Part shown: piece by piece, positions 1-57,294 of the stretch
How the letters are laid out: the number at the start of each line of letters is the position of its first letter
How positions within the stretch are numbered: the first letter of the stretch is position 1
NCBI RefSeq assembly: GCF_014323725.1
Contig: NZ_JABVED010000008.1
Coordinates: forward strand, 124,001 to 188,000
Source: Actinokineospora xionganensis
GTDB lineage: Bacteria > Actinomycetota > Actinomycetes > Mycobacteriales > Pseudonocardiaceae
Length of the DNA: 64,000 nucleotides
Direction: 5' to 3'
Translations under genes and position numbers: made by a program
The notes under the pieces: model-generated
Databases searched by the model: none
Told to the model about the DNA's origin: nothing
Seen by the model: only the letters and a program-made list of their open reading frames with translations

Positions 1-563
1 CCGATCCGCTTGGGCCTGCCGCCGTCGGTGAAGCGGGTCAGGTACCACTCGACTTCCAGACCGACCACGAATTCCAGGTCGCGCGCGGCGAGCGCGTCGA
101 CCTGGCGGCGCAGCGCGGCGCGGCTGGACAGCGGGTGCGGGGTGCCGTCGCGCAAGTATTCGTCGCCGATCACCCAGCCGGTCGGGCGCCCGGTGTGCGG
201 AAGGACGCGGAAGGTCGTCGGGTCGGGCACGACGATGAAGTCGCCCGCCCCGGTCAGTTCGTCGACGCCGATGCCGCCGCCCGAGGCGAAGAAGTCGATC
301 GCGACCGCGTGCCCGGTGTCGAAGACGAACGGGCCGGGGCTGAAGTCCATTCCGTTGCGCAGGACCGTGGCGAACACGGGGGCGCTGATCACCTTCGATC
401 GGGCGATGCCGTGCGGGTCGCCGAAGACCACGCGCACGAACTCCAGCGACTCCAGGCGCGCGAGCACCTCGGCGGCGGCCTCGCGCTGGGCATCGGTCCA
501 GAGTCCGTGTCTGGCAACGAAATCGACGCTGCCGGTCGCGGAGGTCAGGTATGTCTCGCTCAC
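1..563 (-). CDS. Glutamine synthetase-like ligase, partial (cut by window start)
   Basis: About 187 N-terminal residues are visible. They include an FGDPHGIARSKVIS stretch and EVEWYLTRF, which read like the N-terminal beta-grasp and the start of the catalytic domain of the glutamine synthetase superfamily. These enzymes join an amine to the gamma-carboxyl of glutamate using ATP. The GTG start at 563 overlaps the stop of the upstream amidase (GTGA) and has an AAGGACAAGG ribosome site. In the company of an amidase, GNAT and adenylosuccinate-lyase homologue, the likely role is gamma-glutamylation of a small amine such as hydrazine, as FzmN does in fosfazinomycin biosynthesis, rather than ammonia assimilation. 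The family call is firm; the substrate is inferred. Polyamine or amino-sugar gamma-glutamylation is the alternative. Confidence 0.8.
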   Translation of the reverse strand, partial: MSETYLTSATGSVDFVARHGLWTDAQREAAAEVLARLESLEFVRVVFGDPHGIARSKVISAPVFATVLRNGMDFSPGPFVFDTGHAVAIDFFASGGGIGVDELTGAGDFIVVPDPTTFRVLPHTGRPTGWVIGDEYLRDGTPHPLSSRAALRRQVDALAARDLEFVVGLEVEWYLTRFTDGGRPKRI

Positions 564-1933
564 CGTCGCACCTTGTCCTTTCGGGGATCGCGGCCACGCC
601 ATGGCCGGTCTGCTTCGAACTGCTCGGCCACTCGCAGGAGGTCTTCGTCCGCGCCGCGCCGCGCCACGAGTTGGAGGCCGACCGGATATCCGGCCGTGGT
701 GAATCCGGCGGGCAGGGAGATGGCGGGATGCCCGGTGAGGTTGAAGGGATACGCGGCCCGGCACCAGGCCAGCCAACCCAGGTCGTCGCCGGGATCGGGG
801 CGCCACGCGTCGACCGGGAAAGGCTCGATCCACACGGTCGGCATGGCCAGGATGTCGAACTCGGCCAGCAGTCGGTCCACCGCCTGGCACAGAACAGTTC
901 GCCGCGATATCGCCCGAGCGAGGTCGGCCGCGGTCAGCGTTCGCCCGTGGGCGACCACGCGCATCCGGTGCGGGTCCGACAGCGCGTCGTCGGCTTCGTC
1001 CTGACCGGCATCGAAGCCTGCCAGGATGGTCACCAGAACGTCGTACGGGTCCGCGAACGGGATGTCCACTTCGGACATGTCCCCGGCCAGCGCGGACGCC
1101 GCGGCGTGGGCGACGCGTTCGGGCTCGGTGGAGTCCACCGGCCAGCGCAGCCAGGCCACCCTGGCCGTGTCGGAGAAAGCCGCGGGGACCGGCGGCACGG
1201 TCGAGAGCGGATCGTCCGGATGCGGACCGCTGATCACCCTGGCGACCAGGCCCGCCGTGGCCACGTCGCGGGCGAGCGGTCCGATGTGCGACAGGCCCTC
1301 GGGACTGACCGGAACATAGGGTGCCCGGCCGAATGTCGGCTTGTACCCGACCACGCCGCAGAACGCGGCGGGCACCCGGATCGACCCGGCGCCGTCGGTG
1401 CCCAGGGCGGCGACGCCGATCCCGGCCGCGGTGGCCGCGGCCGCGCCCCCGCTTGAGCCGCCCGCGCTGCGGGTGGGATCCCACGGGTTGGCCGCGGCCG
1501 GCCCGACCTGGTTCACCGTGCCCGCGCTCCAGCCGCCCTCGGACGTGGTGGTCTTGCCCACCAGCACCGCGCCCGCGTCCTTGAGCCGGGTGACCGCGGG
1601 GGCGTCGACCTCGGGAATCCACCGCGCCGTGCGGAGCGAACCGCGCGTCGTGCGCACTCCGGCGGTCGGCGTGAGGTCCTTGACCGACACGGGGACGCCC
1701 AGCAGCGGACGGCGGTCCCACGCCGCCGCCCCGAGTTCGCGGATCCGCCGCTCGGCGCGACGGGCCTGGTCCATGGCCAGGTCGGCCGTGACCGTCACGA
1801 ACGCGTGCAGCACGGGTTCGCGCTCCGCCAGCAGGGCAAGGGTCGCACGGGTGAACTCGGTAGGGGAAAGCTCACCGGCGGCATACCACGCCCTGATCTC
1901 GGCCGCCGTGGCGTGCCGCAGTGCCTCATCCAT
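560..1933 (-). CDS. Amidase (amidase-signature family)
   Basis: A 457-residue amidase-signature enzyme (GatA/FmdA/AtzF-like). The Ser-cisSer-Lys triad is visible: Lys85 in PVSVKDLT, Ser160/161 in the AGGSSGGA glycine/serine motif, and Ser184 in GAGSIRVPA, so it should be catalytically competent and hydrolyse a C-N amide bond in the cytoplasm. It overlaps the gene upstream by 8 bp and the glutamine-synthetase homologue downstream by 4 bp. In the hydrazine pathways of fosfazinomycin and kinamycin an amidase sits next to a glutamine-synthetase homologue and deacetylates acetylhydrazine before glutamylation; the same job is the best inference here. No signal peptide is seen. Confidence 0.9.
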   Translation of the reverse strand: MDEALRHATAAEIRAWYAAGELSPTEFTRATLALLAEREPVLHAFVTVTADLAMDQARRAERRIRELGAAAWDRRPLLGVPVSVKDLTPTAGVRTTRGSLRTARWIPEVDAPAVTRLKDAGAVLVGKTTTSEGGWSAGTVNQVGPAAANPWDPTRSAGGSSGGAAAATAAGIGVAALGTDGAGSIRVPAAFCGVVGYKPTFGRAPYVPVSPEGLSHIGPLARDVATAGLVARVISGPHPDDPLSTVPPVPAAFSDTARVAWLRWPVDSTEPERVAHAAASALAGDMSEVDIPFADPYDVLVTILAGFDAGQDEADDALSDPHRMRVVAHGRTLTAADLARAISRRTVLCQAVDRLLAEFDILAMPTVWIEPFPVDAWRPDPGDDLGWLAWCRAAYPFNLTGHPAISLPAGFTTAGYPVGLQLVARRGADEDLLRVAEQFEADRPWRGRDPRKDKVRR

Positions 1934-3617
1934 GGACGCGCTGATACCAGTCCTTCCCGAAGTCCGTCACGATCGGCTCGTAGCGGGCCATCGCCTGGTA
2001 CAGGCCGCGCAGCACGTCGGCGGCCGCGATCGCGCCGCGCAGGTCGGCCACGGTGAACGCGGGCGCGGTGGTGCGCATGAGCCGCAGGTCGTAGAGCCCG
2101 GGCAGCGCGCGGCCGTCATAGGTGATGCCGAACGGCGCGCGGATGGCATAGCGCACACCGAAGACGACGTGTCCGGTGTGGTGCTGGTCGGACCACTCGG
2201 TGACGTCCGGCATCGTCGGGGCGAAGAACCAGTCGTCGCGCCCAGGCTCGCGCTCCACGATGCCCAGGGTGTGCGGGAGGTAGTGCCACGTGTTGAACCG
2301 CATCCGCGCGCTGTAGGCGGCCAGCGCCTTGGCCAGGCCGGCGCGGTCCTGGCCGAACCGGTCCACGAAGGCCTTGCGCGGTGTCACGCAGCAGTAGAAG
2401 GCGCCGGTTCCCAGGCCCAGCGGATCGACATCGCCATGGTCGACCCGCAGGGGGTCGAACCGCTGCGGCCCCCGGCTCATCGACACGTCCGCGTCGAACG
2501 CCTCCGCCGTGGCGGTCAGCAGACCGTGCAGGGCGCACTCCAGCGCCGTGCCGAACGGCTCGACGGTGGGCGCGCCGACCAGGCTCGCGGCGAAGTCGCT
2601 CCACAGTGGACCCAGCGCGTCGATCCGCTCGGGAAGCGGGTCGCGCAGCAGGTCCGCCAGGTGGGCGCGCAGGCGGTCGGGCAAGTCGGCCAGCAGGGCG
2701 GGGGTGTCCATCAGGTGCTCGACCTTGTGCAAGGTCAGACCATTGATGACCCGGTACGGCCGCTTTCCCTGGGCGATCGCGTCCTGCCGCGATCCCGCGC
2801 ATTCCCGGGCGCGGGACTCCAGCTCGGTCAGGTCGGCGGCGGGGGCGGCGGGCGCGGCACAGCCGTACGCCTCGATCCGGGCCCGGAGGAACGCGTCCAC
2901 AAGGGACGGGAGCAACTGGGCTCCGTTGAACTCCTCGGCCCGCACGGGCGGACCGGACTGCAGCACAGCGGCGAGACAGGCGACGAAGCACGCGTCCTCC
3001 GGCGCCCACTCGGCCACCGGGACCCCCCGCAGCCGGTTGAACAGCGAGTTCTCATCTCCGATGCCCATGGACTTGCCCGGCAGGGTGCCGCGCTTGCCGA
3101 GGTTGGTGTACACGCGGTCGTTGACGTGGATCAACACCGGCGCCATGTGCACGAGGCAGTACTCGATGCGGTCGACGCGTTCGAGAACCTCCTCGCGCGG
3201 GAGCGCCGCGAGTTGCCGGTGGACCGCGGCCACGCTCGCCGCGACGGCTTGCGCCTGAACCTGAGCAGCCGCCTTGACGGCGGGCGCATCCAGCGCGCCC
3301 CAACGTAATGCGCCCAGCGGGTGGAGGTCGGCGGGTTCCTCCGCGCCGTCGAGCCGCACCGCGACCCGGCCACTGCCGGTCAGCACCAGTCGGTCGGGGC
3401 CGTTCTCGCCGACCGCCACCGCCACCGATCCGGCGCGCACGAGGTCGAGCACGATCCGGTCGGCCGAGGTGACGGCCAACAAGCCGACCCGCTCGTCGAG
3501 CCGGTCATCGAGGGTCAACGCGATTCGCACGAGTTTGCTGCCATCACTGGCTAATCGCGCACGGTCCGCGACGTCGGCGACAAGGCCGACGAAGCCTTCG
3601 GTCTTCAGCGAAAGCAT
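1926..3617 (-). CDS. Uncharacterised 563-residue biosynthetic protein
   Basis: I do not recognise the family. The protein is soluble-looking, with no signal peptide or membrane segments. It has an acidic N-terminal domain (about 1-105) rich in beta-type residues and a longer helical domain. Conserved-looking stretches are RVDRIEYCLVHMAPVLIHVND (about 150-170), NTWHYLPHTLGIVERE (about 435-450) and the histidine-rich SDQHHTGHVVFG, which could bind metal. It begins at an ATG with a weak AGGA site and overlaps the amidase start by 8 bp. Its position between amidase and ATP-grasp genes matches that of the unassigned hypothetical gene (fzmP type) in the shared fosfazinomycin/kinamycin hydrazine cassette. 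That equivalence rests on context only. Confidence 0.65.
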   Translation of the reverse strand: MLSLKTEGFVGLVADVADRARLASDGSKLVRIALTLDDRLDERVGLLAVTSADRIVLDLVRAGSVAVAVGENGPDRLVLTGSGRVAVRLDGAEEPADLHPLGALRWGALDAPAVKAAAQVQAQAVAASVAAVHRQLAALPREEVLERVDRIEYCLVHMAPVLIHVNDRVYTNLGKRGTLPGKSMGIGDENSLFNRLRGVPVAEWAPEDACFVACLAAVLQSGPPVRAEEFNGAQLLPSLVDAFLRARIEAYGCAAPAAPAADLTELESRARECAGSRQDAIAQGKRPYRVINGLTLHKVEHLMDTPALLADLPDRLRAHLADLLRDPLPERIDALGPLWSDFAASLVGAPTVEPFGTALECALHGLLTATAEAFDADVSMSRGPQRFDPLRVDHGDVDPLGLGTGAFYCCVTPRKAFVDRFGQDRAGLAKALAAYSARMRFNTWHYLPHTLGIVEREPGRDDWFFAPTMPDVTEWSDQHHTGHVVFGVRYAIRAPFGITYDGRALPGLYDLRLMRTTAPAFTVADLRGAIAAADVLRGLYQAMARYEPIVTDFGKDWYQRVHG

Positions 3618-3659
3618 GGCGTCCTGTTCGGAAAGGTAGCTGGAGCGAGGCGGACGGCC

Positions 3660-4907
3660 TCAGCGGGGAGACGGGTTCGAGACCCGGGTGATGAACGAGA
3701 TACCGGCGACGGCCCGCTGCGCCAAGCCAACCGCGTCCGGCGCGGTGTCGGCGACGCATCGGGCGGACGCGGGTCGCGAGTAGGAGCTGACCAGGCCTTG
3801 GAACACCGCGCCGGGTAGCACGGAGACACCGATGACGGCATCGGACCCGGACTCGGGCTGGATCACCTCGACCAGCTCGCCGATCGGTGGCGGGGTGGCG
3901 AACCAGATCGCGGCCGCCTTCGGCGGTCGCGGCTCGGCCAGCGCCGCCCGGACCTCGGGCAGGACCTTGTGGCCGAGGGACTGTCGCAGCTGCGCTTCGA
4001 TCAGGTCGACGCCGACGGCGTCGTGCACCAGTTCCCAGATCTCGTCGCCGCCCATGCGCACGTGGGTCTCGATGATCCTCGGCCCGCCGGGGGTGAGGAT
4101 CATCTCGGTGTGCGAGGCACCGGTCCGGACGCCGATCGCGTCGAGCACTCGCAGGGCAAGGGCTTCGCACTCGACCCGGACGTCGTCGGCCAGCGGGGCC
4201 GGGATGACGTGACCGAGTTCCACGCGGGTCGCCGGGTCGGTGTACTTGGCCGTGACCGCGAGGACCACGTGTTCCCCATCTTCCGACAGGGCCTCGACGC
4301 TGTACTCCGGACCGTCCAGATAGGACTCGGCGAACACGCCAAGGCTGCGGTGCCACCCGTGGTCGGACGCGTTGTGGGCCCGGTCGAACGCGCCCTCGAC
4401 GGCGGCCTCGTCGCGCACGACGGACACGCCGAAGCTGGCCAGGCCCCCGACCGGCTTGACCACGACCGGGAAGCCGTGTCGCTTGGCGAAGTGCCGCAAC
4501 GCATCGACGTCCTGGACGATCTCGGCAGGCGTGTCATCGATGCCCGCCTCGGCCAACCGCAGCCGCATCGCGTCCTTGTGGTGGGCCAGCCGCACGGTCT
4601 GCACGCTGTGGGTGGCCACACCGAGCGCCTCGCCGACCGCGGCCGCGCGATCCTGGTCGTGTTCCCCAAGTGTCGCGATATGGGTCACCGGGTCGCCGCG
4701 GTGCACGACTTCGGCCAGCCCCACGCACTCCTCAGTGGTCAGATCAGCCGACAGCACCAGCAGGCGCGCGTGGTGCTCCGGGTCGACGAGCCGGTGCAGA
4801 TGGTCGGGTCGGCACACCAGAGTGGTGCGCACGCCCTCTTCGAGGCCGCGGATTCGGCTGGGTAAGTCTCCGTTGCCGCTGCCGAAGATCATGACGTGTT
4901 TGGTCAT
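3660..4907 (-). CDS. ATP-grasp carboxylate-amine ligase
   Basis: A 415-residue ATP-grasp protein. The N-terminal part resembles a pre-ATP-grasp fold (MIFGSGNGDLPSR). The ATP-binding core has FPVVVKPVGGLASFGV and a FAESYLDGPEYSVEA segment, and the metal-binding end is HTEMILTPGGPRIIETHVRM, typical of amino-acid/dipeptide ligases of the BacD type. Such enzymes activate a carboxylate as acyl phosphate and couple it to an amine. The ATG at 4907 overlaps the MFS stop (ATGA), which fixes the start; a longer upstream reading would run inside the MFS gene. In this operon it is a candidate for joining a hydrazine or amine to a carboxylic acid. The substrate is unknown. Confidence 0.88.
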   Translation of the reverse strand: MTKHVMIFGSGNGDLPSRIRGLEEGVRTTLVCRPDHLHRLVDPEHHARLLVLSADLTTEECVGLAEVVHRGDPVTHIATLGEHDQDRAAAVGEALGVATHSVQTVRLAHHKDAMRLRLAEAGIDDTPAEIVQDVDALRHFAKRHGFPVVVKPVGGLASFGVSVVRDEAAVEGAFDRAHNASDHGWHRSLGVFAESYLDGPEYSVEALSEDGEHVVLAVTAKYTDPATRVELGHVIPAPLADDVRVECEALALRVLDAIGVRTGASHTEMILTPGGPRIIETHVRMGGDEIWELVHDAVGVDLIEAQLRQSLGHKVLPEVRAALAEPRPPKAAAIWFATPPPIGELVEVIQPESGSDAVIGVSVLPGAVFQGLVSSYSRPASARCVADTAPDAVGLAQRAVAGISFITRVSNPSPR

Positions 4908-6133
4908 GTCGATGCCTTTTCGTCGTCGTGATCGGGTACATAACCCTTGACAGCCACCGAGGTGACCACGGCCGCCGCGACGAAGAGGCCGATGACGACC
5001 AGCACGCCGGGCATGCCCCACGGCAGCACCACAGCCGTCATGAGGACCGGTCCCACGATGTGCTGGCCGGTGTAGCCGAGGCTGAACAGGCTGAGGTACT
5101 GCGCGCGCTTCTCCGGATCGGACAACAGGAACGACAGCTCCCAGCCCGCGACCGCGTGCAGGTTCTCGCCGACCGTGAGCAACGCGACCGCGCCCGCCAG
5201 CAGAGCGATCAACTGCCATTTCTCACCGTCGTCGGTCAACCCGAGCAACAGCCCCGCGGCCGCCAGCGCCACGATCGACCACCGCAACATCCGCATCGCG
5301 CCGTTGATGCCCCTGGCGTACTTGGCCACGTGCACCTGGACGAGCACGGTGATCACGGTGTTGAGCACGAGCAGTGTCGAACTCGTCGTCGCCGACAGCC
5401 CGCTGCGCTGCACCACCCACAAGGGAATGAGGATGAACAACATCGAGTCGTGCATCATCAGGACCGCGTTGGCTATGGCCACGGTGATGAAACGGCCGTC
5501 CCGGTAGACGGAACTCGCGCGCCGCTCCCGGATCGGGGCGCTGACGTCCTTGCTCACCGCTCCCTTGGTCGCGCGCACCGTCACCACCGCGACCAGAGCG
5601 AAAGCCGCGCCGCACAACGTGAACAGCACCAGGTACCCGGCGTGGGTGTGCATCATCTGCACGAGGCCCGCGACCAGGAAGCCCAACGCGAGACCGATGT
5701 TGTTCACCGTCCGCATCGAAGCCATCGTCCTGGTGCGATCCGCCTCGCCCTCCATCTGCCCGATGAGGACCTGCAGCAGCGGCAGCGCCGCCCGGCTCGC
5801 CATCGTGAACACACACGTCACGACCAAATAGCGCCAATAGTCGTCGGCCAGGACGTAGGCGGCCATCCCGACGCCGCGAACGGCGAGCAGGGCGATGTAG
5901 ACGCGCGTCACGCCCAGCGACTGGGTCAGGCGGGCCACCGGCATCGGGACCAGCAGGCCGAATATGTTGGCGATCGCGATGGCCACACCCACCGAGGTCG
6001 CCGGAATCCGGACGTACTCGACGAAATAGAGCGTGGCGACGGCGAGGTACACACCGGTGGCGCCCGCGTCGATCAGGGCGCCCAGCGCCAGGACCCGGCC
6101 GCGGCGGCTGTGCGGGAGCAGTGCCTTCAACAT
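4904..6133 (-). CDS. MFS transporter, probable product exporter
   Basis: A 409-residue integral membrane protein with about 12 hydrophobic helices and a short cytoplasmic loop in the middle (around residues 195-215, RATKGAVSKDVSAPIRERRA), the usual 6+6 layout of the major facilitator superfamily. The ATG at 6133 overlaps the preceding gene's stop by 7 bp. Placement inside a biosynthetic operon suggests export of the product or self-protection; direction and substrate cannot be read from sequence. Confidence 0.9.
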   Translation of the reverse strand: MLKALLPHSRRGRVLALGALIDAGATGVYLAVATLYFVEYVRIPATSVGVAIAIANIFGLLVPMPVARLTQSLGVTRVYIALLAVRGVGMAAYVLADDYWRYLVVTCVFTMASRAALPLLQVLIGQMEGEADRTRTMASMRTVNNIGLALGFLVAGLVQMMHTHAGYLVLFTLCGAAFALVAVVTVRATKGAVSKDVSAPIRERRASSVYRDGRFITVAIANAVLMMHDSMLFILIPLWVVQRSGLSATTSSTLLVLNTVITVLVQVHVAKYARGINGAMRMLRWSIVALAAAGLLLGLTDDGEKWQLIALLAGAVALLTVGENLHAVAGWELSFLLSDPEKRAQYLSLFSLGYTGQHIVGPVLMTAVVLPWGMPGVLVVIGLFVAAAVVTSVAVKGYVPDHDDEKAST

Positions 6134-6843
6134 CGGGCACCCGCCGCGTGGACGAACGCCTTGAACAGGCGGGAATCGCCACCCACCTCGGGGTGCCACT
6201 GCACACCGACGACGAAGTCGCGCGTGCTGTGCTGCACGCTCTCCACACCGCCGTCCGCGCACCAACCCGTCGCGACCAGGCCCGCGCCCAACCGCTCGAC
6301 GCCCTGGTGGTGGTAACAGGAGACCTCGGTGGCCGCGCCCATGAGCGCGCCCGGCATCAGCCGCTCGTCGAGGGTGACCTCGACCGAGCCGAACCTGCTG
6401 CCCTCGGGCTGGTGACCTGGCCTGCCGATCTCCTGCCGCAATGTCCCGCCACACACCACGTTCAGCAGCTGAAGTCCCCGACACACGCCCAGAACCGCCA
6501 GATCCGCGTCGAGCGCGGCATCGGCGAGGGCGATCTCCCACGAGTCACGGTCGCCCTGCGCGTCGCCGGTCCCGCTTTCCCGTTCGCGGCCGTAGCGCCC
6601 CGGGTCGACGTCCGGACCACCGACGAGCAGCAGCCCGTCGAGCCACGCGACCAGATCGTGCGCCGCGGCCCGGTCGCCGTCCGGCGGCAGCAGGATCGGC
6701 AGTCCGCCCGCGTCGGCGATGGGATCGAGAAAGTCCCGCGGCACCAGGGAAGCCCGACGGTTCCACCCACGCCAGGACGCGTCCTCCTGGTAGGTGGTCA
6801 CGCCGATCCTGGGGGCTCGCGAGACCCGTACCGGTGTGCTCAT
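6127..6843 (-). CDS. Class-I glutamine amidotransferase / gamma-glutamyl hydrolase (peptidase C26, PuuD-like)
   Basis: A 238-residue stand-alone class-I glutaminase fold. The nucleophile elbow GVCRGLQLLN places the catalytic cysteine at Cys121, and QWHPE supplies His217 and Glu219, so the Cys-His-Glu triad is complete. PuuD-type members cleave gamma-glutamyl amides. With a gamma-glutamyl ligase (glutamine-synthetase homologue) in the same operon, the pair suggests a load-and-release shuttle in which an amine or hydrazine is carried on the gamma-carboxyl of glutamate and freed here. It could instead be a glutaminase partner for the ATP-grasp ligase. It overlaps both neighbours (7 bp and 4 bp). 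Confidence 0.88.
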   Translation of the reverse strand: MSTPVRVSRAPRIGVTTYQEDASWRGWNRRASLVPRDFLDPIADAGGLPILLPPDGDRAAAHDLVAWLDGLLLVGGPDVDPGRYGRERESGTGDAQGDRDSWEIALADAALDADLAVLGVCRGLQLLNVVCGGTLRQEIGRPGHQPEGSRFGSVEVTLDERLMPGALMGAATEVSCYHHQGVERLGAGLVATGWCADGGVESVQHSTRDFVVGVQWHPEVGGDSRLFKAFVHAAGARC

Positions 6844-7247
6844 GGGGTCAGCGCATCCATGACCCAGGCCGAGTTGTGCCTGGTGAACCCGATGTGCGGG
6901 TAGTAGTCGACCGCGGCGGGCGCCGACAGCAGCACGATCTTGGCGCGCGGGTGGGCCTGGCGGGTCGCCTCGATCAGGTCCCGCCCGATGCCCTGCCGCT
7001 GGAACTCCAGATCCACGGCGATGTCCGACAGGTAGGTCACGTACGCGCCGTCGGTGATCGACCGGGAAATGCCGACCATGCGGTCGTCGATCCTGGCCAC
7101 GACGACGAGGTTGGCGTTGCGCACCATGTCGGCGAACCGCTCGGCGTCGTCCACCGGACGGCGCTCGGCGAGAGTCGAGGCGCGATAGAGCGCGGTGACC
7201 TCGGCGACGTCGAGCGCCGCGCCATCGACGATCTCACATTTCCACAT
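6840..7247 (-). CDS. GNAT-family N-acetyltransferase
   Basis: A 135-residue single-domain GNAT. Motif A is visible as DLEFQRQGIGRDLI (Q-R-Q-G-I-G, about residues 80-92), the acetyl-CoA pyrophosphate loop, followed by DYYPHIGF near the end, typical of motif B. The ATG at 7247 (MWKCEIV) lies 14 bp inside the end of the lyase gene; longer upstream readings would overlap that gene heavily and are not needed. In the fosfazinomycin hydrazine route a GNAT acetylates hydrazinosuccinate just before a lyase releases acetylhydrazine, and here the GNAT is directly next to such a lyase. The substrate is inferred. Confidence 0.85.
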   Translation of the reverse strand: MWKCEIVDGAALDVAEVTALYRASTLAERRPVDDAERFADMVRNANLVVVARIDDRMVGISRSITDGAYVTYLSDIAVDLEFQRQGIGRDLIEATRQAHPRAKIVLLSAPAAVDYYPHIGFTRHNSAWVMDALTP

Positions 7248-8526
7248 CGAACATCTTCTCCATTCGGTCGCGCACCACGTGCGCGCGGGACAGGAACCGG
7301 GCGGGCCGGAACTGGTCGTCGGTGGTCGCCACATCTCGGTCGGCGAGCGTCTCGCTCAGGTGCCTGCCGGTCTCGGCCGTCTCGGCCGCGGCGTCCTGCA
7401 CCACGCGGTATGCCTTCTCCCGGTCCATCCCGCCGTCGACGAGATCGAGCAGGATGTCGGCGCTGTAGATCAGCCCGCGCGTTGATTCGAGATTCGCCAG
7501 CATCCGCTCCGGGAAGACCGTCATGCCGTCGACGATCTCCGCGGCCTTGGTCACCTGGTAGTGGGCGATGGTGAACGCGTCAGGGAAGACCACGCGCTCG
7601 ACCGGCGAGTGGGCAAGGTCCCGCTCGTGCCACAGCGCGACGTTTTCGTACCCCGCGTCGGCGTAGGCGCGCAGAAGTCGGGCCAGCCCACAGATTCGCT
7701 CGCTCGACGTCGGGTTGCGCTTGTGCGGCATGGCGCTGGATCCCTGGTACGCGCTGGTCCTCGGCTCCTCCACTTCACGCACCTCGGTGCGCTGCAGCAG
7801 CCTCAGCTCCAGCCCGATCTGCTCGACCACGGCGCCCAGGACGGCCAGCACCGAGAGCATCTCGGCGTGCCGGTCGCGGGCGACGACCTGGCTGGGGATC
7901 GGCTCGACGCCCAAGCCCAGTTCGGCGCACACGGCGGCCTCGACCATCGGGTCGATCTTGGAGTACGTCCCGACCGGGCCGGAGATGGTGCCCACCGCGA
8001 CCGCGGACCGGGCCGCGACCAGCCGGGTCAGGCAGCGGTCGACGGCGGCGGCGTGCAGTGCCATCTTCTGGCCGAAGGTGGTCGGTTCGGCGTGGATCCC
8101 GTGCGTGCGCGCGACACAGACGGTGTCCCAGTGCCGCAGCGACCGTCGGACCAGGACATCCCGCAGTCTGGTGGCCGCTTCGATCATCAGGTCGCACGAC
8201 CGCGCCAGGGTGTGGCCCAGCGCGGTGTCGACCAGGTCGTAACTGGTCATGCCGTAGTGCACCCAGCGGCCGTGTCCACCGGGAATCGTCTCGGTGTAGG
8301 CCTCCAGGAAAGCCAAGATCTCGTGGTCGCGGGTGACCTCGCACTCGCGGACCCGCGAGACGGTCGGGACGCGGCCCTGCTCGATGGCGGCGATCGCCTC
8401 GCGCGGGATCACCCCGAGGTCGGCCTGCGCCCGGCTCGCGAGCACCTCGACCCGAACCCACGAGGCGTACTTCGCCTCGTCGGTCCAGAGGTCCCGCATG
8501 ACGGGCAGGCAGTATCTGTCGATCAT
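7234..8526 (-). CDS. Adenylosuccinate lyase-like enzyme (fumarase/aspartase superfamily)
   Basis: A 430-residue protein with the superfamily signature SSAMPHKRNP (residues 261-270, flexible catalytic serine loop) and the ASL-type RTHGIHAEPTTFGQK around His142. It therefore performs a fumarate-releasing beta-elimination. The usual ASL block is MTS-(S/T)-D; here it reads MTSYDLVDTA (residues 93-102), a tyrosine beside the substrate serine that may hint at altered specificity. The ATG at 8526 overlaps the methyltransferase stop (ATGA). Embedded in a biosynthetic operon beside a GNAT, it more likely cleaves an N-succinyl intermediate such as N-acetylhydrazinosuccinate than serves purine synthesis. 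A true PurB remains the alternative. Confidence 0.88.
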   Translation of the reverse strand: MIDRYCLPVMRDLWTDEAKYASWVRVEVLASRAQADLGVIPREAIAAIEQGRVPTVSRVRECEVTRDHEILAFLEAYTETIPGGHGRWVHYGMTSYDLVDTALGHTLARSCDLMIEAATRLRDVLVRRSLRHWDTVCVARTHGIHAEPTTFGQKMALHAAAVDRCLTRLVAARSAVAVGTISGPVGTYSKIDPMVEAAVCAELGLGVEPIPSQVVARDRHAEMLSVLAVLGAVVEQIGLELRLLQRTEVREVEEPRTSAYQGSSAMPHKRNPTSSERICGLARLLRAYADAGYENVALWHERDLAHSPVERVVFPDAFTIAHYQVTKAAEIVDGMTVFPERMLANLESTRGLIYSADILLDLVDGGMDREKAYRVVQDAAAETAETGRHLSETLADRDVATTDDQFRPARFLSRAHVVRDRMEKMFDVEM

Positions 8527-9254
8527 TGCGGTCGACGCCCCCACAGGACCAGGCTCCGCAGGTTCGCGGTCAGCGGGCCCGCGGCGAGGTCGGCGTCGAG
8601 CGCGGCCAGGCCGTCGGCGAACTCGTCGTCGCCGATCAAGTGCAGGCACGAGTAGGACTTGTCCCGAAAGCGGGTCGAGTCGGCGAGTTCGTACTCGCTC
8701 TCCACGACGTGTTCGTTCAGGTCGCCGAAACCGGCGAGCGCGAGGTCCCCGGACAGCCGCGGGATCGGGTGGTACCGGTCCGCCTCGGCGTCGATCGTGC
8801 CGGGGAAGTAGCGCGCCATCGGGATCCTGTTGCGGATGATCCAGTCCGAGTCGGTGACGGTGACGAAGTACCCACCCGGCTTGAGCGCGCCGAACGCGCG
8901 CCGGAAGTACTCCAGCGGCTCACGAACGTAATGGATCATGTCGACCGACATGATCAGGTCGAACGTCGCGGCCGGGAAGTCCAGTTCCTGCGCGTAGCCC
9001 TGACGCAGATCCAAGTCCTCCGGCTGGGTGCGCGCCACGGCCAGCATCTGCTCCGACGGCTCGACCCCGAAACACTTGGCCCCGGTCTCGCGACGCACCG
9101 CCGCGACGTGGTTCGCGGTGCCGCACCCGACTTCCAGCACGGTGTGCTCGGCGGTCACGCCCGCGCGCCGCACGATGTGCTCGATCAGACCCGGGTAGGT
9201 GCGACGGTGGCGCGCGTACTCGGTGGCCAGGTCGTCGTAGTTGAGCGTGGTCAC
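8523..9254 (-). CDS. SAM-dependent class-I methyltransferase
   Basis: A 243-residue methyltransferase with motif I VLEVGCGTANHVAAV (about 38-52), an acidic residue after beta-2 (GVEP), DLIMSVDMIHYV as motif II/III and LKPGGYFV. The start is GTG at 9254 (VTTLNYDD), which overlaps the kinase stop (GTGA) and has AAGGGAAAGAAGGATTC upstream as ribosome site. It may N- or O-methylate an intermediate of the operon's product. The acceptor cannot be predicted. Confidence 0.88.
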   Translation of the reverse strand: MTTLNYDDLATEYARHRRTYPGLIEHIVRRAGVTAEHTVLEVGCGTANHVAAVRRETGAKCFGVEPSEQMLAVARTQPEDLDLRQGYAQELDFPAATFDLIMSVDMIHYVREPLEYFRRAFGALKPGGYFVTVTDSDWIIRNRIPMARYFPGTIDAEADRYHPIPRLSGDLALAGFGDLNEHVVESEYELADSTRFRDKSYSCLHLIGDDEFADGLAALDADLAAGPLTANLRSLVLWGRRPQ

Positions 9255-10711
9255 GAATCCTTCTTTCCCTTGGAAAAACCGTCTTCCCAAACCTCGCGTG
9301 CCATGCGCAGGTACCAGCCCACGTACGCGAACGTGGCCAGCCACGCCTGCGGGCTTCGCAGCGAACGCAGGTATTTGAGCCATCCGGCCAGCGATGTGGC
9401 CGCGCCGATGTAGAGCCTGGCTGTGGTGTGCGCGCGCGGCTCGTCGTGCGGGAGCGCGCGCAGCATCCGCTCGATCAGCGCGTCGACGCTGCCGGGGAAG
9501 CGCAGGGGGAGCCGCAGGGAGGTCAGGTCGAGCACACCGTCGACCGGCCGCACGTCGTCCACCAGCCGGTCCTGCGTGCCCTCCTCGGCGGCGCGCAGGA
9601 TCGCGGCCATGGGGAACACCCCGTGCAGCAGCGTGGCGAAGTCGAAGACGGGGTCGCCGTACCCGACGTCGGGGCGGTCGCGGCCCTCCCAGACGGTCCT
9701 GGGGTCGATCAGCACCGGGCTCCCGTCAGCGCGCAGCAGCATGTTGGCGGCGTAGATGTCGCCGTGTACCGCGCTTCCCTGGTTCGGCAGCAAGTCCGGC
9801 GCCACCTGGTCCAGCCACGAGACCGCGGCTCGGTAACCGTCCATGACGGTCCCGCCGGGCAACACGATCCGGGCTTCGAGCATGTCGTCGAGTCCGGTTT
9901 CGGGAAAGAGCGCCGCGAACGTGGCGAGAAAATCGGTTTGCCCACACAGGATGTGGTAGCGCTCCCGGTAGAGGTAGTCGGCGACGGTCGGACGTTGCGT
10001 GCCCGCGGTGAGCCGGTACCAGGCGCCGACCTGATCGAGGTGCGGTTCAAGCTGGTCCAGGGCCGCGGCCGCCAGCGTGGTGCGCTCGTCGTCGGCGAAC
10101 AGCGGCGACAGCGGCAGCGGCAAACCCGCCTCCATCAGGCTCACCGCCTGCGTTCCCTCGTGGTGCACGCCGTGCACCTCCGGGAACAACCCCCGCCTGC
10201 CATCCTTGGCCAGCAACGCGTTCACCTCGCAGGCGAACGCGACCTCCCCCGCGATCGCGGCGGCGTCACCGACTTTCGCCACGATATCGGCGCCGTCCAC
10301 TCGAAACTGGACCACACCCCGCGAGTCGGACCCGGGTTTGTGCATCTTGGTGAACTCGGGCCGAGCCATGGCACCCGCCCATTCCCGCAGGCGGGCCGCC
10401 ACGGCGAAGTCGACGACGTCGGCGATGCGGCCGTTCGGATCAACGTCCAGTGGAAACCAGGTGCCGTGCAGGGTTCCACCGACGATCAGTGCGCCCACAC
10501 CACAGGGACAGTCGCGTTCGACCACGGTGAAACCGAACCTGCGCAACCGTTCGACCTGCTCGGGCGCGGGCTCGACCCCGGCGAAGAGAACTGACGGGAC
10601 AGCTGTGTCGAACGCGCCGTCGCGATCCGCGAGCGCGGTGTAGACCTCAGCCAGTTCACGGGCGTTCACCTGTCGCGAACGCGCGCGCACCACTTCATCC
10701 ACGATTGTCAT
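9251..10711 (-). CDS. Aminoglycoside-phosphotransferase-fold kinase, first gene of the operon
   Basis: A 486-residue protein. Residues 1-130 form an N-terminal domain I do not recognise. Residues 130-440 are an APH/choline-kinase-like kinase, with a probable ATP-contacting Lys146 (DIVAKVGDA), the catalytic loop AVHGDIYAANML (Asp318) and metal-binding Asp336 in LIDPRTVW. It may phosphorylate a hydroxyl of an intermediate, or provide self-resistance by phosphorylating the product. The first gene of the run starts at ATG 10711 behind GGGGAGTTTCAGGGGCC. The 313-bp gap upstream must carry the operon promoter. Confidence 0.82.
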   Translation of the reverse strand: MTIVDEVVRARSRQVNARELAEVYTALADRDGAFDTAVPSVLFAGVEPAPEQVERLRRFGFTVVERDCPCGVGALIVGGTLHGTWFPLDVDPNGRIADVVDFAVAARLREWAGAMARPEFTKMHKPGSDSRGVVQFRVDGADIVAKVGDAAAIAGEVAFACEVNALLAKDGRRGLFPEVHGVHHEGTQAVSLMEAGLPLPLSPLFADDERTTLAAAALDQLEPHLDQVGAWYRLTAGTQRPTVADYLYRERYHILCGQTDFLATFAALFPETGLDDMLEARIVLPGGTVMDGYRAAVSWLDQVAPDLLPNQGSAVHGDIYAANMLLRADGSPVLIDPRTVWEGRDRPDVGYGDPVFDFATLLHGVFPMAAILRAAEEGTQDRLVDDVRPVDGVLDLTSLRLPLRFPGSVDALIERMLRALPHDEPRAHTTARLYIGAATSLAGWLKYLRSLRSPQAWLATFAYVGWYLRMAREVWEDGFSKGKKDS

Positions 10712-11024: not shown

Positions 11025-12461
11025 TCAGCTTGCGCCATTCACAGTGGCCGCCGCGAGACTGGCAAAAGGATCTTTCGCGGACGCCCGCGTGAGCAAGGCC
11101 GCGACATCCCCCGCGCACCCCCCGCAACCGGTCGTCGCCCTGGTTCGGCGGGCGACTTCGGAAACCGTGCGTCCCTCGCAGGCGAGGATCGTCTTGGCGG
11201 TGACCCCGTTGCACCGGCACACCACCTGCTCGGTGGAATCGCCCGACGTCGCGAGGTCGAACAGCAACGCGGCAGGGTCGGCCGGGGCCGGGCGGGCGCG
11301 ATCGAACAGGTCCGTCACCGTGCCCATCGTCCCCGTGTCACCCATGAACACCGCGCCCACGATCACCCCGGCTCGCAGGACGAGTTTTTTGTACCGGCGT
11401 CGGGCCGGGTCCGCGAACACGACGACTTCCGTGGCGGGGTCGTCCACTTCGTCGACGACCGCGCTGTCCCCCATCGCGGCCAGGTCGATGTCCTGCGCCT
11501 TCAACCGCAGCACCGGCAGCACCGGCCGGTCCCGAGGTTCGGGCGACCACCCGCCGATGTCCGCGGCGGCGCGCGACGCCTGCTCCCAAGCGGGTTCCAC
11601 CAAGCCGTGGACCACGCCGCGGTGTTCGGCGCAGTCGCCGACCGCGTACACCGCCGGATCGGTGATCGACCGCATCCTGTCGTCGACGACGACACCGCCG
11701 TTCACCGCCAGTCCGCACGCGCGGGCCAAGGCGACCTCCGGCCGGGTGCCGCAGGCCGCCACCAGCAGTTCGCAGCTCAGTACGGTGTCGTCGGTCAGCC
11801 GAACCGCCGACACCCGCTCCTCGCCCGACACCGCCGTCACCGCGGTGTCGAGGTGCACCCGCACGCCGTGCGCGGTCAAGGCCATCGCCAGGATCCGGCC
11901 CGCGACCGGGTCGAGGTGTCGTTGCAGCAAATGCGTCTGCTGGTGCACCAGGTCCACCGCCATGCCCCGACCGGCCAACGCCCTGGCGGCCTCGACGCCC
12001 AGCGGGCCGCCGCCGAGCACGACCGCGTTGCCACCCGGCCGCGCCGCGGCCAGGATCGCCCGACAATCCGATGCCGTACGGAACGTGAACGCACCCGGCG
12101 TGAGCCCGGCGGCCCCACGCAATCCGGGAATGGGCGGCACCACCGGTGTGCTGCCCGTGGCGAACACCAGCACGTCGTATTCGGTGGCCCCGTTCTCGGT
12201 CCGCACCACCCGCGCGGCCCGGTCCACTTCGGTGACGGACCGTCCCACCCTCATGTGAACGCCGTCCGGCGCGGCGGGCAGGGCGATGTCGCGCAGTGGA
12301 AACGTGTCGGCGAGCACGCTCGACAGCAGGATCCGGTTGTAGGCGGGCTCGGGTTCGGCGCCGAACATGGTGATCTCGTGACGGAACCCGGGATCTCCCG
12401 CCCGCAGGTCCGCCGCGAAGCGGACGCCCGCCATCCCGGTGCCGATGACGACGATCCTCAT
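11025..12461 (-). CDS. Assimilatory nitrate reductase electron-transfer subunit (FAD + [2Fe-2S] BFD)
   Basis: A 478-residue flavoprotein. The N-terminal FAD dinucleotide fold is MRIVVIGTGMAGVRFA, a second NAD(P)H-binding fold is AVVLGGGPLGVEAA, and YAVGDCAE is the FAD-contact motif. The C-terminal cysteine cluster (VCRCNGV ... TGCGGCAGD) is a bacterioferritin-associated-ferredoxin-like [2Fe-2S] domain. This matches NirB-type N-terminal regions and NasB-type electron-transfer proteins that pass electrons from NAD(P)H to nitrate reductase. The ATG at 12461 overlaps the stop of the catalytic subunit (ATGA), so the two are translated together. It lacks the sirohaem part of nitrite reductase. Confidence 0.88.
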   Translation of the reverse strand: MRIVVIGTGMAGVRFAADLRAGDPGFRHEITMFGAEPEPAYNRILLSSVLADTFPLRDIALPAAPDGVHMRVGRSVTEVDRAARVVRTENGATEYDVLVFATGSTPVVPPIPGLRGAAGLTPGAFTFRTASDCRAILAAARPGGNAVVLGGGPLGVEAARALAGRGMAVDLVHQQTHLLQRHLDPVAGRILAMALTAHGVRVHLDTAVTAVSGEERVSAVRLTDDTVLSCELLVAACGTRPEVALARACGLAVNGGVVVDDRMRSITDPAVYAVGDCAEHRGVVHGLVEPAWEQASRAAADIGGWSPEPRDRPVLPVLRLKAQDIDLAAMGDSAVVDEVDDPATEVVVFADPARRRYKKLVLRAGVIVGAVFMGDTGTMGTVTDLFDRARPAPADPAALLFDLATSGDSTEQVVCRCNGVTAKTILACEGRTVSEVARRTRATTGCGGCAGDVAALLTRASAKDPFASLAAATVNGAS

Positions 12462-14539
12462 GACGCTCTCTCCCCTGCCCGATCCACTCTGGCAGCGCAC
12501 ACTTTGAACGCGGGCATCCCGGACACGGGGTCCAACTTCGGGTCCGTCAACAGATTCGCCCGTCCATCACCGGCCCAGTGGAACGGCATGAACACCGTGT
12601 CGACCGGAACGTCGTCGGTCACCCGGGCCGCCGCGATGGCCGCACCCCGGCGAGTGCGAACCCGGACCATGTCACCGTCGCGGACTCCGAGCTCCGCCGC
12701 GTTGGCCGGGTTCAGCTGCACGAACACCGCGCCCTCCGCCGCGGCGAGCTCATCGATTCGCCGGGTCTGCGCACCACTCTGGTAGTGGGCGAGGACCCGG
12801 CCTGTGGTGAGCCTGAGCGGAAACTCGGCGTCGGGGCGCTCGGTCACCGGCGCGTACTCGACCGGGTGGAAGACCGCCCGACCGTCCAGGGTGGCGAACC
12901 GCTCGGCGAACAGCCGGGGGGTACCGGGATGGTCGGCGGACGGGCATGGCCAGAAGACACCGTCGCCTTGGTCGAGGCGGTCGTAGGTGATGCCTGCGTA
13001 GTCCGCCCGGCCGCCGCTGGAGGCCGCGCCGAGTTCGGCGAACACCGTCTCCGGGTCCGCGTCGAAGCCGGGGGCGCCGAGTCTTCGGGCCAGGTCGGCC
13101 ACAACGTCGAGTTCGTCGCGCACCCCGGGCGGGGCCGGGCGGGCGCGCCTGCGCCGGATCACCCGCCCCTCCAGATTGGTGATCGTGCCGCTCTCCTCCG
13201 CCCACTGGCAGACGGGCAACACGACGTCGGCGATCGCGGCGGTCTCGGACAGCACGAAGTCGGCCACCACCAACAAGTCCAGGCCGCGAAGGGCGCGTTC
13301 GATGTGCCCGGCGTTCGGCGCGGAGACCACGGGATTGCTGCCGAAGACGAGCAGCGCCCGGGAACCGTCCGCCGTACCGAGCCCGTCGAGCAGCTCGTAC
13401 GCGGACTGCCCCGGACCTGGCAGGTCGTCCGGGCGGACTCCCCAGACCGCGGCGACGTGGGCACGGTCCGCGTCGTCGCGGATGGACCGGTAGCCCGGAA
13501 GCTGATCGGCCTTCTGGCCGTGCTCGCGGCCGCCCTGCCCGTTTCCCTGGCCGGTCACACAGCCGTACCCGGACCCAGGGGCACCCGGGAGGCCAAGCGC
13601 GAGCGCCAGGTTGATCCAGGCTTGGACGGTGTCGGTCCCGTTGCTGTGCTGTTCGGTGCCGCGGCCGGTCATGACCAGGGCTGTCCGCGCCCCCGCGAGC
13701 GCGGCGGCGGCCGCGCGCTGGGCCGCCACCGGCACCCCGGTGACGCGTTCCACCCGTTCGGGCCAGTAGTGCGCCAACACCCGCCGCAGCGCGTCGAAAC
13801 CCGTCGTGCGCCGTTCGATGTAGTCCAGGTCGTGGTGGCCGTCGGCGATCACCAGATGCGCCAGCCCGCAGGCGAGGGCCAGGTCGGTGCCCGGGTGGGG
13901 CCGCAGGTGCAGGTCGGCCAGCCGCGCGGTGGCGGTGCGCCTGGGGTCCACCACGATCAGGGTTCCGCCCTTGGCCCGCTGCGCGTTGAGGTGTCGGGTG
14001 ATCGGTGGCATCGTCTCGGCGACATTGCACCCGACCAGCAGGACCGCGCCGGCGTCGGCGATGTCCGCCACCGGGAACGGCAGGCCGCGGTCGATGCCGA
14101 ACGCTCGGTTCCCCGCCGCGGCGGCCGACGACATGCAGAACCGCCCGTTGTAGTCGATGCGGGAGGTCCGGAGCGCGACGCGGGCGAACTTCCCCAACTG
14201 GTAGGCCTTTTCGTTGGTCAGTCCGCCGCCGCCGAACACCGCGACCGCGTCGGGTCCGTGCTCCGCGCGCAAGGCGGCGAGCCGGGCGGCGATCAAGCTC
14301 AGTGCCTCGTCCCACTGAGCGGGGCGCAGCGGCCCGTCACGGCCGTCGCGGATCAACGGCGTGGTCAACCGATGCGGCGAGTCCAGCAGCGAACCCGAGG
14401 TCCAGCCCTTGACGCAGAGCCCTCCACCAGCGGGAAACGGCCGTGGCCGCACCGTGGCGTCCGGACGCACGGTCATCGCGCACTGCAGAGCGCAGTACGG
14501 ACAATGCGTGGCGACGCCCGCGGCGACCGAGTCCAGCAC
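12458..14539 (-). CDS. nasA: Assimilatory nitrate reductase catalytic subunit (Mo-bis-MGD)
   Basis: About 693 residues of the molybdopterin oxidoreductase family. The N-terminal [4Fe-4S] ligands are HCPYCALQC plus a later cysteine (GLCVKGW), and NGRFCMSSA carries the likely Mo-ligating cysteine (about Cys135). The C-terminal molydopterin dinucleotide-binding domain includes LTTGRVLAHYQSG and PFHW. I place the start at GTG 14539 because AGGGGAG lies 7 nt upstream; a GTG 27 bp further out is possible but has no such site. There is no Tat signal, so the enzyme is cytoplasmic and reduces nitrate to nitrite. It is divergent from narK. Confidence 0.92.
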   Translation of the reverse strand: MLDSVAAGVATHCPYCALQCAMTVRPDATVRPRPFPAGGGLCVKGWTSGSLLDSPHRLTTPLIRDGRDGPLRPAQWDEALSLIAARLAALRAEHGPDAVAVFGGGGLTNEKAYQLGKFARVALRTSRIDYNGRFCMSSAAAAGNRAFGIDRGLPFPVADIADAGAVLLVGCNVAETMPPITRHLNAQRAKGGTLIVVDPRRTATARLADLHLRPHPGTDLALACGLAHLVIADGHHDLDYIERRTTGFDALRRVLAHYWPERVERVTGVPVAAQRAAAAALAGARTALVMTGRGTEQHSNGTDTVQAWINLALALGLPGAPGSGYGCVTGQGNGQGGREHGQKADQLPGYRSIRDDADRAHVAAVWGVRPDDLPGPGQSAYELLDGLGTADGSRALLVFGSNPVVSAPNAGHIERALRGLDLLVVADFVLSETAAIADVVLPVCQWAEESGTITNLEGRVIRRRRARPAPPGVRDELDVVADLARRLGAPGFDADPETVFAELGAASSGGRADYAGITYDRLDQGDGVFWPCPSADHPGTPRLFAERFATLDGRAVFHPVEYAPVTERPDAEFPLRLTTGRVLAHYQSGAQTRRIDELAAAEGAVFVQLNPANAAELGVRDGDMVRVRTRRGAAIAAARVTDDVPVDTVFMPFHWAGDGRANLLTDPKLDPVSGMPAFKVCAARVDRAGERAS

Positions 14540-14740
14540 CCTGTGTCTCCCCTCGCTGATGCCCACCCAGTCGGGCGACGATACGCAGCCCCCGCCCCCG
14601 CGGGATCATCCAGCCCCACCAAGCCGTCAATGTCCTAAAAGGACCATCGGTGGACTTTCCCCATTGCTCCATTTGGGTCTTGGCGGCCACGCCGGAAACC
14701 GTCAAGCTCGCCAGTCGGGCGAGCATAGGAGACGAACGGC
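14540..14740. promoter_or_regulatory. Divergent promoter region between nitrate reductase and narK; GTCCT-AAA-AGGAC palindrome
   Basis: This 201-bp gap must hold the promoters of both nitrate operons. A 13-bp interrupted palindrome GTCCTAAAAGGAC lies at 14632-14644 and could be a regulator site. I did not find a convincing GlnR or nitrate-regulator box by eye. Confidence 0.4.
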
Positions 14741-56917: not shown

Positions 56918-57294
56918 ATGATCCACCTTTCCGGTGTCGCCCCCAGTGTGCAAGACCGTCCGCGGGGCGGCAGGGTGACGCGCGTGACCTGCGGCGACGT
57001 GGTACTGCACACAGGGTCCTGGCGACGCGCAGGTCAGCCGCACATTCGAAAACTGGGAATTGTCAGTCGGCCAACAATCAGGTGTCGGGCGCTACCACCT
57101 GGGCCAAAAACCAGCCAGTATGGAGGGGCCTCGACAAAGTTCGTAACCGAACGAAGCGGCACGACCGCCCTGCGCGAACGACAGTGGCCCAGATGGGTGA
57201 CAAAGCTCCATCCGGCGTCCTAATCGTCGTGCTGGAGCGTCACATGTATGGGACTCAGTCGTTTGGCTGGGAAGGGAGCAGAAGGGTAGCGACG
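56918..57294. promoter_or_regulatory. Divergent upstream region, PGPGW gene / SsgA-family gene
   Basis: This 377-bp gap separates two divergent genes and must contain both promoters. I see no recognisable operator or RNA gene. A GGAATT hexamer about 57055 could be an ECF-type -35 element but no clear partner was found. Confidence 0.3.

Follow-up and report, generated by a model that had tools for sequence, protein, structure and literature searches.

The first 10,711 nucleotides of the 64,000-nucleotide stretch of Actinokineospora xionganensis DNA analysed here (the window; C69:124001-188000 of a 6.8 Mb draft genome, window coordinate 0 being C69:124000) belong to a 12-gene operon that very probably directs synthesis of a small hydrazine-containing metabolite through the hydrazine-on-glutamate pathway. 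Judged from sequence, the assignment as a hydrazine operon of known enzymatic kind is well supported, and the source of its nitrite and the tail of its pathway, as proposed below, each lie nearer to an even chance; gene content, operon packing, orthology, active-site conservation, the shared cluster type, the second nitrate-reductase set and the lack of a CreD above cut-off are read directly from sequence, and from these we infer every reaction, how the late steps follow one another, where nitrite comes from and the nature of the product. Published background was taken from PMC12154649, PMC6133997, PMC11705231, PMC12945691 and PMC10477347.

Organization of the operon

The minus strand of positions 1-10711 carries nine complete genes and the first part of a tenth, with intact frames throughout and including every gene named in the initial annotation. 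The operon covers about 13.7 kb, from the kinase start at 10711 to the end of the second FemAB-like gene at -2997, in the order kinase, methyltransferase, lyase, GNAT, C26, MFS, ATP-grasp, 563-aa protein, amidase, synthetase homologue, FemX-like and FemAB-like. Of its 11 junctions, 10 are overlaps of 1-23 bp and the remaining one is 42 bp, a packing typical of a predicted single transcription unit. The right edge drawn in the initial annotation stands, while the left edge has to be moved, two more overlapping genes lying beyond the synthetase homologue. The genes are as follows, negative coordinates being to the left of the window on the same contig.

9251..10711, minus strand: APH/fructosamine-kinase-like small-molecule kinase, 486 aa, first operon gene (Pfam APH, a weak match of 24.8 bits against a cut-off of 23.2)
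8523..9254, minus strand: class I S-adenosylmethionine-dependent methyltransferase, 243 aa (Pfam Methyltransf_11)
7234..8526, minus strand: candidate N-acetylhydrazinosuccinate lyase, FzmR/KinM orthologue, 430 aa (Pfam Lyase_1/ADSL_C)
6840..7247, minus strand: candidate hydrazinosuccinate N-acetyltransferase, FzmQ/KinN orthologue, 135 aa (GNAT, Pfam Acetyltransf_10)
6127..6843, minus strand: C26 gamma-glutamyl amidohydrolase, candidate glutamyl-carrier releaser, 238 aa (Pfam Peptidase_C26, 182 bits)
4904..6133, minus strand: MFS exporter, 409 aa (Pfam MFS_1; 69-71% identity in loci L013 and L018)
3660..4907, minus strand: ATP-grasp ligase, L-amino-acid-ligase-like, 415 aa (Pfam ATP-grasp_4; best PDB match 3vot, an L-amino acid ligase)
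1926..3617, minus strand: candidate KinJ/FzmP-family heme hydrazine synthase, 563 aa (active-site residues)
560..1933, minus strand: amidase, FzmO/KinK orthologue, candidate deacetylase giving glutamylhydrazine, 457 aa (Pfam Amidase, 296 bits)
1..563, continuing to -948, minus strand: glutamine-synthetase homologue, FzmN/KinL orthologue, 503 aa (PF00120)
-926 to -1936 (C69:122064-123074), minus strand: FemX-like double-GNAT transferase, 336 aa (Pfam Acetyltransf_6)
-1936 to -2997, minus strand: FemAB-like protein, 353 aa, last operon gene (Pfam FemAB_like)

The hydrazine cassette

The published hydrazine cassette consists of FzmN/KinL (glutamine synthetase homologue), FzmO/KinK (amidase), FzmP/KinJ, FzmQ/KinN (GNAT) and FzmR/KinM (lyase). 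The window operon has all five genes, as do 17 of the 27 further KinJ-family loci examined, a set in which close relatives and Streptomyces are overrepresented. Identities of the window proteins to their counterparts in these 17 full-cassette loci are 47-76% for the lyase, 53-79% for the GNAT, 48-75% for the synthetase homologue, 41-70% for the amidase and 29-60% for the 563-aa protein. The fosfazinomycin and kinamycin reference loci are stand-ins picked by genomic context, not named FzmN-R or Kin sequences. The fosfazinomycin-type stand-in (L053/L109) shows a phosphoenolpyruvate mutase match to TIGR02320 (297 bits, just below the cut-off of 320), a phosphonopyruvate decarboxylase above cut-off and, by eye, an adjoining AsnB-like gene, which is the fosfazinomycin pattern. 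The stretches L112 and L114, adjoining cassettes L063 and L064, carry ketosynthase genes by model match, in what appears by eye to be a type II polyketide synthase (PKS) layout. Relatives of the 563-aa protein occur in loci of both the kinamycin and the fosfazinomycin type and, on the identities to the full-cassette loci, with context-identified loci standing in for the named proteins, the five proteins are probable orthologues of the FzmN-R/KinL-M cassette, as first proposed.

Ordinary genes of purine and nitrogen metabolism (PurB, GlnA, an amidase and an acetyltransferase) are hardly credible as an explanation, for TIGR00928 (purB), which calls the window lyase an adenylosuccinate lyase at 411 bits (cut-off 326), is equally above cut-off for the two cassette lyases tested, from phosphoenolpyruvate-mutase and ketosynthase loci, and the host has a separate PurB (423 bits with the same model) only 28.6% identical to the window lyase. 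Since TIGR00928 fits PurB and cassette lyases alike, annotation by name misleads here. The synthetase homologue is at most 31% identical to the five other glutamine synthetases of the genome; the low identities to host PurB and glutamine synthetases, together with the far higher identities to cassette lyases, rule out plain PurB and GlnA.

The 563-aa protein and its ferredoxin

The 563-aa protein matches no Pfam or NCBIfam family at E 0.001, and PDB sequence search gave one insignificant match (E 0.22). The KinJ residues reported as conserved or mutated are K356, C468, R497, M498, N501, H504, H541, R551 and R570 (PMC12154649, a preprint that also prints R496 and R550 in one place), and they are matched in the window protein by K298, C409, R438, M439, N442, H445, H483, R493 and R512. 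All nine positions are invariant in 22 of 22 aligned members, window included. In five ferredoxin-linked homologues (L057, L059, L061, L063 and L064) the residue spacing equals exactly the KinJ numbering (for instance, 73 residues from C468 to H541, and K356 112 residues before C468); a sixth homologue, L066, departs from this spacing by a single residue at the lysine. By sequence and active site the 563-aa protein belongs to the KinJ/FzmP family and is a candidate heme hydrazine synthase.

In a tree of 28 KinJ-family sequences, for which the program warned that long branches meet, the window protein groups with those of L013 and L018 (100/99) inside a 10-member clade that includes fosfazinomycin-type L053, apart from a separate 15-member clade and three outlying rows. 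It is 44% identical to the L053 homologue and about 30% to PKS-associated homologues. By motif scan, a two-cluster ferredoxin occurs in the stretches of 15 of 15 members of the 15-member clade, 0 of 10 of the window's clade (84 kb searched for the window; one match in L018 looks spurious) and 0 of the 3 outlying members. The FdxA_Actino model is above cut-off elsewhere in the genome, at C28. Both arrangements, a partner ferredoxin in the cluster or a 7Fe ferredoxin elsewhere, are on record, FzmP and NegJ relatives often lacking an in-cluster ferredoxin (PMC12154649).

As to homologues of the 563-aa protein, a match was found in 4 of 100 relatives (own genome included), tblastn of plasmids gave 8 records with 29-34% identical relatives, and a scan of a contig collection gave five. 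Among 392 Streptomyces-group genomes, 28 have some match and 24 a long match. Weak partial matches to the KinJ model, mostly to its C-terminal half, were also noticed in frames of 465-700 aa (L048, L049, L051, L052 and G101:C19:80285-80653), possibly a distant heme-domain family. In the same-genus genome G012, a KinJ homologue (39%) is followed by two ATP-grasp genes (L019:9075-13367); no other cassette gene was found in the stretch examined, and by its gene content this locus is predicted to be a different hydrazine cluster.

A conserved nine-gene cluster type

Nine genes, those for the kinase, methyltransferase, lyase, GNAT, C26 protein, 563-aa protein, amidase, synthetase and FemX-like protein, occur together in seven of the 27 other KinJ-family loci, giving eight clusters with the window. 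The other hosts are Umezawaea tangerina (L013), genome G037 (L018), Streptomyces pinistramenti, S. albireticuli and S. eurocidicus (L014-L016), and the Streptomyces-group genomes G355 and G470 (L054 and L055). Recurrence of the nine genes in seven further loci makes the grouping more than chance. The cluster type was counted in 4 of the 392 Streptomyces-group genomes (G100, G102, G355 and G470), the long matches in G392 and G184 being left out of this count for lack of flanking sequence.

The kinase, present in all eight clusters at 33-62% identity, keeps H316-G-D-I and D336-P-R invariant; the methyltransferase, also in all eight, is 44-73% identical; and residues C121, H217 and E219 of the C26 protein are invariant in eight of eight. 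The main text of the KinJ paper (PMC12154649) never mentions Umezawaea, albireticuli or glutaminase, and no description of a FemX-like/C26/kinase set with the full cassette was found in that text; the 234 representative neighbourhoods of that paper may include this cluster type.

Source of nitrite

The initial annotation suggested that the nitrite-forming partners may lie left of position 1. This was not borne out: no CreD- or CreE-like gene was detected in the window or in the 20 kb to its left, where the cassette lyase itself was the only match (the search for CreE being limited to those 84 kb), and with CreD model NF052556 nothing in the whole genome exceeded the cut-off of 650, the best match being the cassette lyase at 128 bits. 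Not mentioned in the initial annotation are genes for nitrate transport and reduction that adjoin the operon on the right.

11025..12500, minus strand: flavin adenine dinucleotide (FAD)/BFD reductase, NasC-like electron-transfer partner, 491 aa (Pfam Pyr_redox_2, Fer2_BFD; overlaps NasA by 43 bp)
12458..14566, minus strand: assimilatory-type molybdenum nitrate reductase, NasA-like, 702 aa, second genome copy (Pfam Molybdopterin + Molydop_binding)
14741..16111, plus strand: NarK/NarU-type nitrate/nitrite transporter, divergent from NasA

The best NCBIfam model for NasA, NF047855, gives 767 bits, below its cut-off of 1100, and gives 754 bits for the core copy; the NarK family matches are also below cut-off (NF011608, 305 bits against 836; TIGR00886, 279 bits against 311.7). 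The NirB model aligns with NasC over its first part alone (positions 1-472 of 794), and no NirB match was found in 26 kb around the set. The core genes at C8, to which the window set is 65-66% (NasA), 46% (NasC) and 48% (NarK) identical, adjoin NirB, and in the nearest relative they stand in the same place and are 97-98% identical. NasC and NasA are on the operon strand, 313 bp upstream of the operon and reading towards it.

On its position and gene content, the NarK-NasA-NasC set is a plausible nitrite source for the operon. Nitrate reductase feeding N-N chemistry would not be new in itself, since nitrate/nitrite reductases were proposed as the nitrogen source in L-alanosine clusters without CreD/CreE (Wang and Ryan 2023, via PMC11705231) and 15N-nitrate has been published to label kinamycin to about 80%; direct pairing of NasA with a KinJ operon would be new as far as the literature searched goes.

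There is about an even chance that the nitrate set is a chance neighbour, with nitrite coming from the core nitrate-assimilation locus, whose NasA at C8 could also make it, or from outside. Both operon and nitrate set are in accessory DNA, from -9491 to about 55.5 kb, that gives no match of >50% identity in the examined stretches of four same-genus relatives, so that they may represent two unrelated insertions. On the left, synteny with G014, the nearest relative, breaks off at -9764, and the next match, 56507-57720, is a 1.2 kb block that is inverted; the two flanks of one insertion are therefore not claimed. In addition, no second KinJ locus with the pairing was found, and second NasA copies occur also without nitrite users. 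Against chance stand the want of a nitrite reductase near the set, the direction and strand of NasA and NasC, a genome without CreD above cut-off, and the fact that some extra NasA copies elsewhere adjoin CreD or a diazotase-like gene.

Neighbours of NasA were counted in 29 loci, which are all those with at least 60% identity to NasA among the matches listed, both own copies included. A KinJ or diazotase-like gene was found in 3 of 10 loci without NirB vs 0 of 19 with NirB (Fisher p 0.033), one of the 19 (L092) being judged by the front part of NirB at the stretch edge. The window prompted the hypothesis, and its stretch was 26 kb vs 12-20 kb for the others; when it is left out, the counts become 2 of 9 vs 0 of 19 (p 0.095), and they are weak evidence. 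Twenty further Streptomyces-group NasA loci (L159-L178, two-copy genomes preferred) gave no strong marker, but a 100-bit ligase match in L163 and a 50% PabAB match in L176. Six loci were not counted, L126 and L127 because they were picked for CreD beside NasA, and L131, L132, L135 and L136 as core copies of cluster hosts.

In two of these, from S. eurocidicus and S. albireticuli (L126:2342-14508 and L127:1-8542), a second NarK-NasA-NasC set adjoins CreD, NirB being cut to its FAD half (457-458 aa) and a core nitrate locus with full NirB existing besides. The flavoprotein beside CreD, which has no NCBIfam match, we take by eye to be CreE; in L127 the gene is cut by the contig end. A shared origin of the window nitrate set with these CreD-linked sets was rejected, since window and CreD-linked sequences fail to cluster in the trees of NasA and NarK. 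In two actinomycetes of different families (L091:1139-15865 and L155:1755-10415), NasA-NasC lies beside a diazotase-like adenosine monophosphate (AMP) ligase and PabAB; the L091 ligase comes closest to the NCBIfam model for 3-aminoavenalumate diazotase (350 bits against a cut-off of 975), and genes for NarK and a 3-deoxy-D-arabinoheptulosonate 7-phosphate (DAHP) synthase are further members of that locus.

Coupling and release enzymes

It had first been supposed that the hydrazine synthon is fed to the ATP-grasp ligase. Among the eight clusters, however, the ATP-grasp gene is within the operon in the window cluster only. Its slot between the MFS gene and the gene for the 563-aa protein is empty in L013 and L018, where the two genes are about 73 bp apart, and no match was found in the examined stretches of L014-L016 and L055. 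Being confined to the window operon, it does not represent a shared coupling logic, and as general coupling enzyme of the cluster type it is ruled out. It is still conceivable, though improbable, that the cassette is real with ATP-grasp as its main coupling enzyme, the FemX-like proteins serving something else: the protein is closest to L-amino-acid ligases and encoded inside the operon, a 30% identical ATP-grasp gene lies some 4 kb away from the L054 cluster, and KinJ clusters, neg and fzm among them, are described as commonly having ATP-grasp genes (PMC12154649), with matches here in seven of the 27 further loci of the family, mostly loci of other cluster kinds. Against it stands the lack of a match in L013-L016, L018 and L055 noted above, while the FemX-like gene occurs in each of the eight clusters.

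The model of the FemX-like orthologue of L013, of low confidence (predicted local distance difference test, pLDDT, 63.5), was matched by Foldseek to FemX and to aminoacyl-tRNA peptide synthases of the streptothricin type (E 1e-10 to 7e-9). PDB sequence profiles gave no match for the kinase (E 0.1) or the FemX-like protein (E 1). Relatives of the latter transfer amino acids from tRNA to small molecules (PMC12945691). Because the gene is in eight of eight clusters, the fold match is of FemX type and the relatives are tRNA-dependent, coupling of an aminoacyl group from tRNA to the hydrazine is proposed. The FemAB-like protein, 72-73% identical in L013 and L018, has no match in the other 25 loci. 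The C26 profile matches PuuD (gamma-glutamyl-gamma-aminobutyrate hydrolase, 6vtv). Since C26-like genes are found also in five other loci (39-49% identity) and a glutamine amidotransferase has been described close to cassettes of kinamycin type, the C26 gene is not unique to this cluster type.

Directly to the left of the operon is a vanRS-like pair with vanH-vanA-vanX (-7568 to -3055; L007:12432-16945), of which VanA is above the cut-off for D-Ala-D-lactate ligase. VanK is the FemX-like member of van glycopeptide-resistance sets elsewhere. That the FemX-like genes belong to this resistance set, outside the hydrazine pathway, is quite improbable: vanH, vanA and vanX follow 57 bp past the second FemAB-like gene on the same strand, but the first FemX-like gene overlaps the synthetase gene by 23 bp in the window and adjoins it in seven clusters without van match in the examined stretches, and both FemAB-like genes are present in L013 and L018, which also gave no van matches.

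Proposed pathway and points against it

In the proposed pathway, nitrite may come from the adjoining second NarK-NasA-NasC set, in place of CreE/CreD acting from aspartate. The next steps are known for homologues and predicted here from orthology: the KinJ-type heme enzyme, served by a ferredoxin from another place in the genome, would join nitrite to the L-aspartate amine to give L-hydrazinosuccinate, the GNAT would acetylate it, the lyase would split off fumarate to leave acetylhydrazine, the synthetase homologue would attach acetylhydrazine to the glutamate side chain, and the amidase would remove the acetyl group to give glutamylhydrazine. The steps that follow are predicted here only: the FemX-like transferase may place an aminoacyl group from aminoacyl-tRNA on the hydrazine, the C26 hydrolase may take off the glutamyl carrier, and the methyltransferase and kinase may finish or mask the product before export by the MFS protein, ATP-grasp being perhaps a local extra tailoring enzyme. 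Methylation and phosphorylation are proposed to be tailoring or self-protection. The whole combination, nitrate-fed KinJ hydrazine synthesis with FemX-like aminoacylation and C26 release leading to a new class of amino-acid hydrazides in Pseudonocardiaceae and Streptomyces, is advanced tentatively, the balance being against it.

Several observations weigh against this pathway. CreD is above cut-off in five of the eight cluster hosts, lying 33 kb (G037) or 46 kb (G103) from the 563-aa homologue, on a different contig (G101 and G102) or far off (G470). In G355 the match is 558 bits and in the fosfazinomycin-type host G284 it is 543 bits, both below the cut-off of 650; as a fosfazinomycin-type host also scores below 650, a score of about 550 bits may represent a working enzyme, possibly also in G355. 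Genomes G000 and G100 have no CreD match at E 1e-30 except the cassette lyase, and S. pinistramenti (G100), which is without CreD above cut-off, is also without a NasA match at E 1e-150 or better, so that nitrite must there come from elsewhere. NasA was found in none of the examined stretches of the 27 other KinJ loci, the pairing being seen once, and the gap of 313 bp leaves co-transcription of NasC with the operon a putative link only. The Foldseek matches to FemX had TM-scores of 0.36-0.45 with a root-mean-square deviation near 10 A, and the roles of the FemX-like and C26 proteins are predicted from family and fold. Finally, the model of the 563-aa protein, for which 5 sequences were used, falls below pLDDT 50 in the greater part of residues 323-563, does not show the published GAF-like domain, and gave no match at E 0.001 in fold search.

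Comparison with known hydrazine and N-N bond systems

With fosfazinomycin FzmN-R (PMC6133997), the window has in common the synthetase, amidase, KinJ-type protein, GNAT and lyase, and the 563-aa homologue of fosfazinomycin-type L053 is in the same ferredoxin-less clade. Unlike the fosfazinomycin system, the window operon contains kinase, C26 and FemX-like genes, and the genome has no CreD above cut-off. Phosphoenolpyruvate mutase, phosphonopyruvate decarboxylase and an AsnB-type FzmA are missing from the 12 operon genes, a genome-wide search not having been made. With the kinamycin, lomaiviticin and fluostatin systems (KinI-N, Lom and Fls), five enzyme families are shared and the KinJ active-site residues are kept, but there is no KinI-type ferredoxin motif in 84 kb around the window operon. 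Type II PKS genes are likewise absent among the 12 operon genes (genome-wide search not made). Hydrazine is freed from glutamylhydrazine by AsnB-type FzmA in the fosfazinomycin pathway, and glutamylhydrazine is coupled whole by AlpH in the kinamycin pathway; the predicted transfer logic of the window operon, C26 release with FemX-like aminoacylation, would differ from both.

Within the KinJ heme family (PMC12154649), the window protein is a member by sequence and active site, and its operon has an ATP-grasp gene as do many KinJ clusters, but other cassette parts are described as typically absent from KinJ clusters and the window operon has the full cassette. The reductase nitrogen source is likened to that of L-alanosine (PMC11705231), a diazeniumdiolate made by other enzymes, whereas the nitrite user here would be a KinJ-type hydrazine synthase. 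A FemX-like double-GNAT fold is, by Foldseek with the low-confidence L013 model, predicted to be common to the FemX-like protein and VlmA, DhpH-C, PacB and Orf11 (PMC12945691); no GNAT-fold aminoacyl-tRNA transferase with a hydrazine acceptor appeared among the literature matches listed, nor anything relevant on hydrazine with FemX-like enzymes or on products of the named host species.

Formation of N-N bonds by the KinJ family has been described only recently, and the KinJ paper (PMC12154649) leaves open the nitrite source in the many clusters without CreD/CreE and the products of most clusters. The operon holds the full cassette and an exporter in about 13.7 kb, belongs to a cluster type shared by eight genomes and has a candidate nitrite source beside it, so that a single strain would serve to test both points. 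Farther to the right, window positions 21520-45000 carry what appears by eye, from the translations, to be a run of large secreted carbohydrate-enzyme-like and transporter-like genes.

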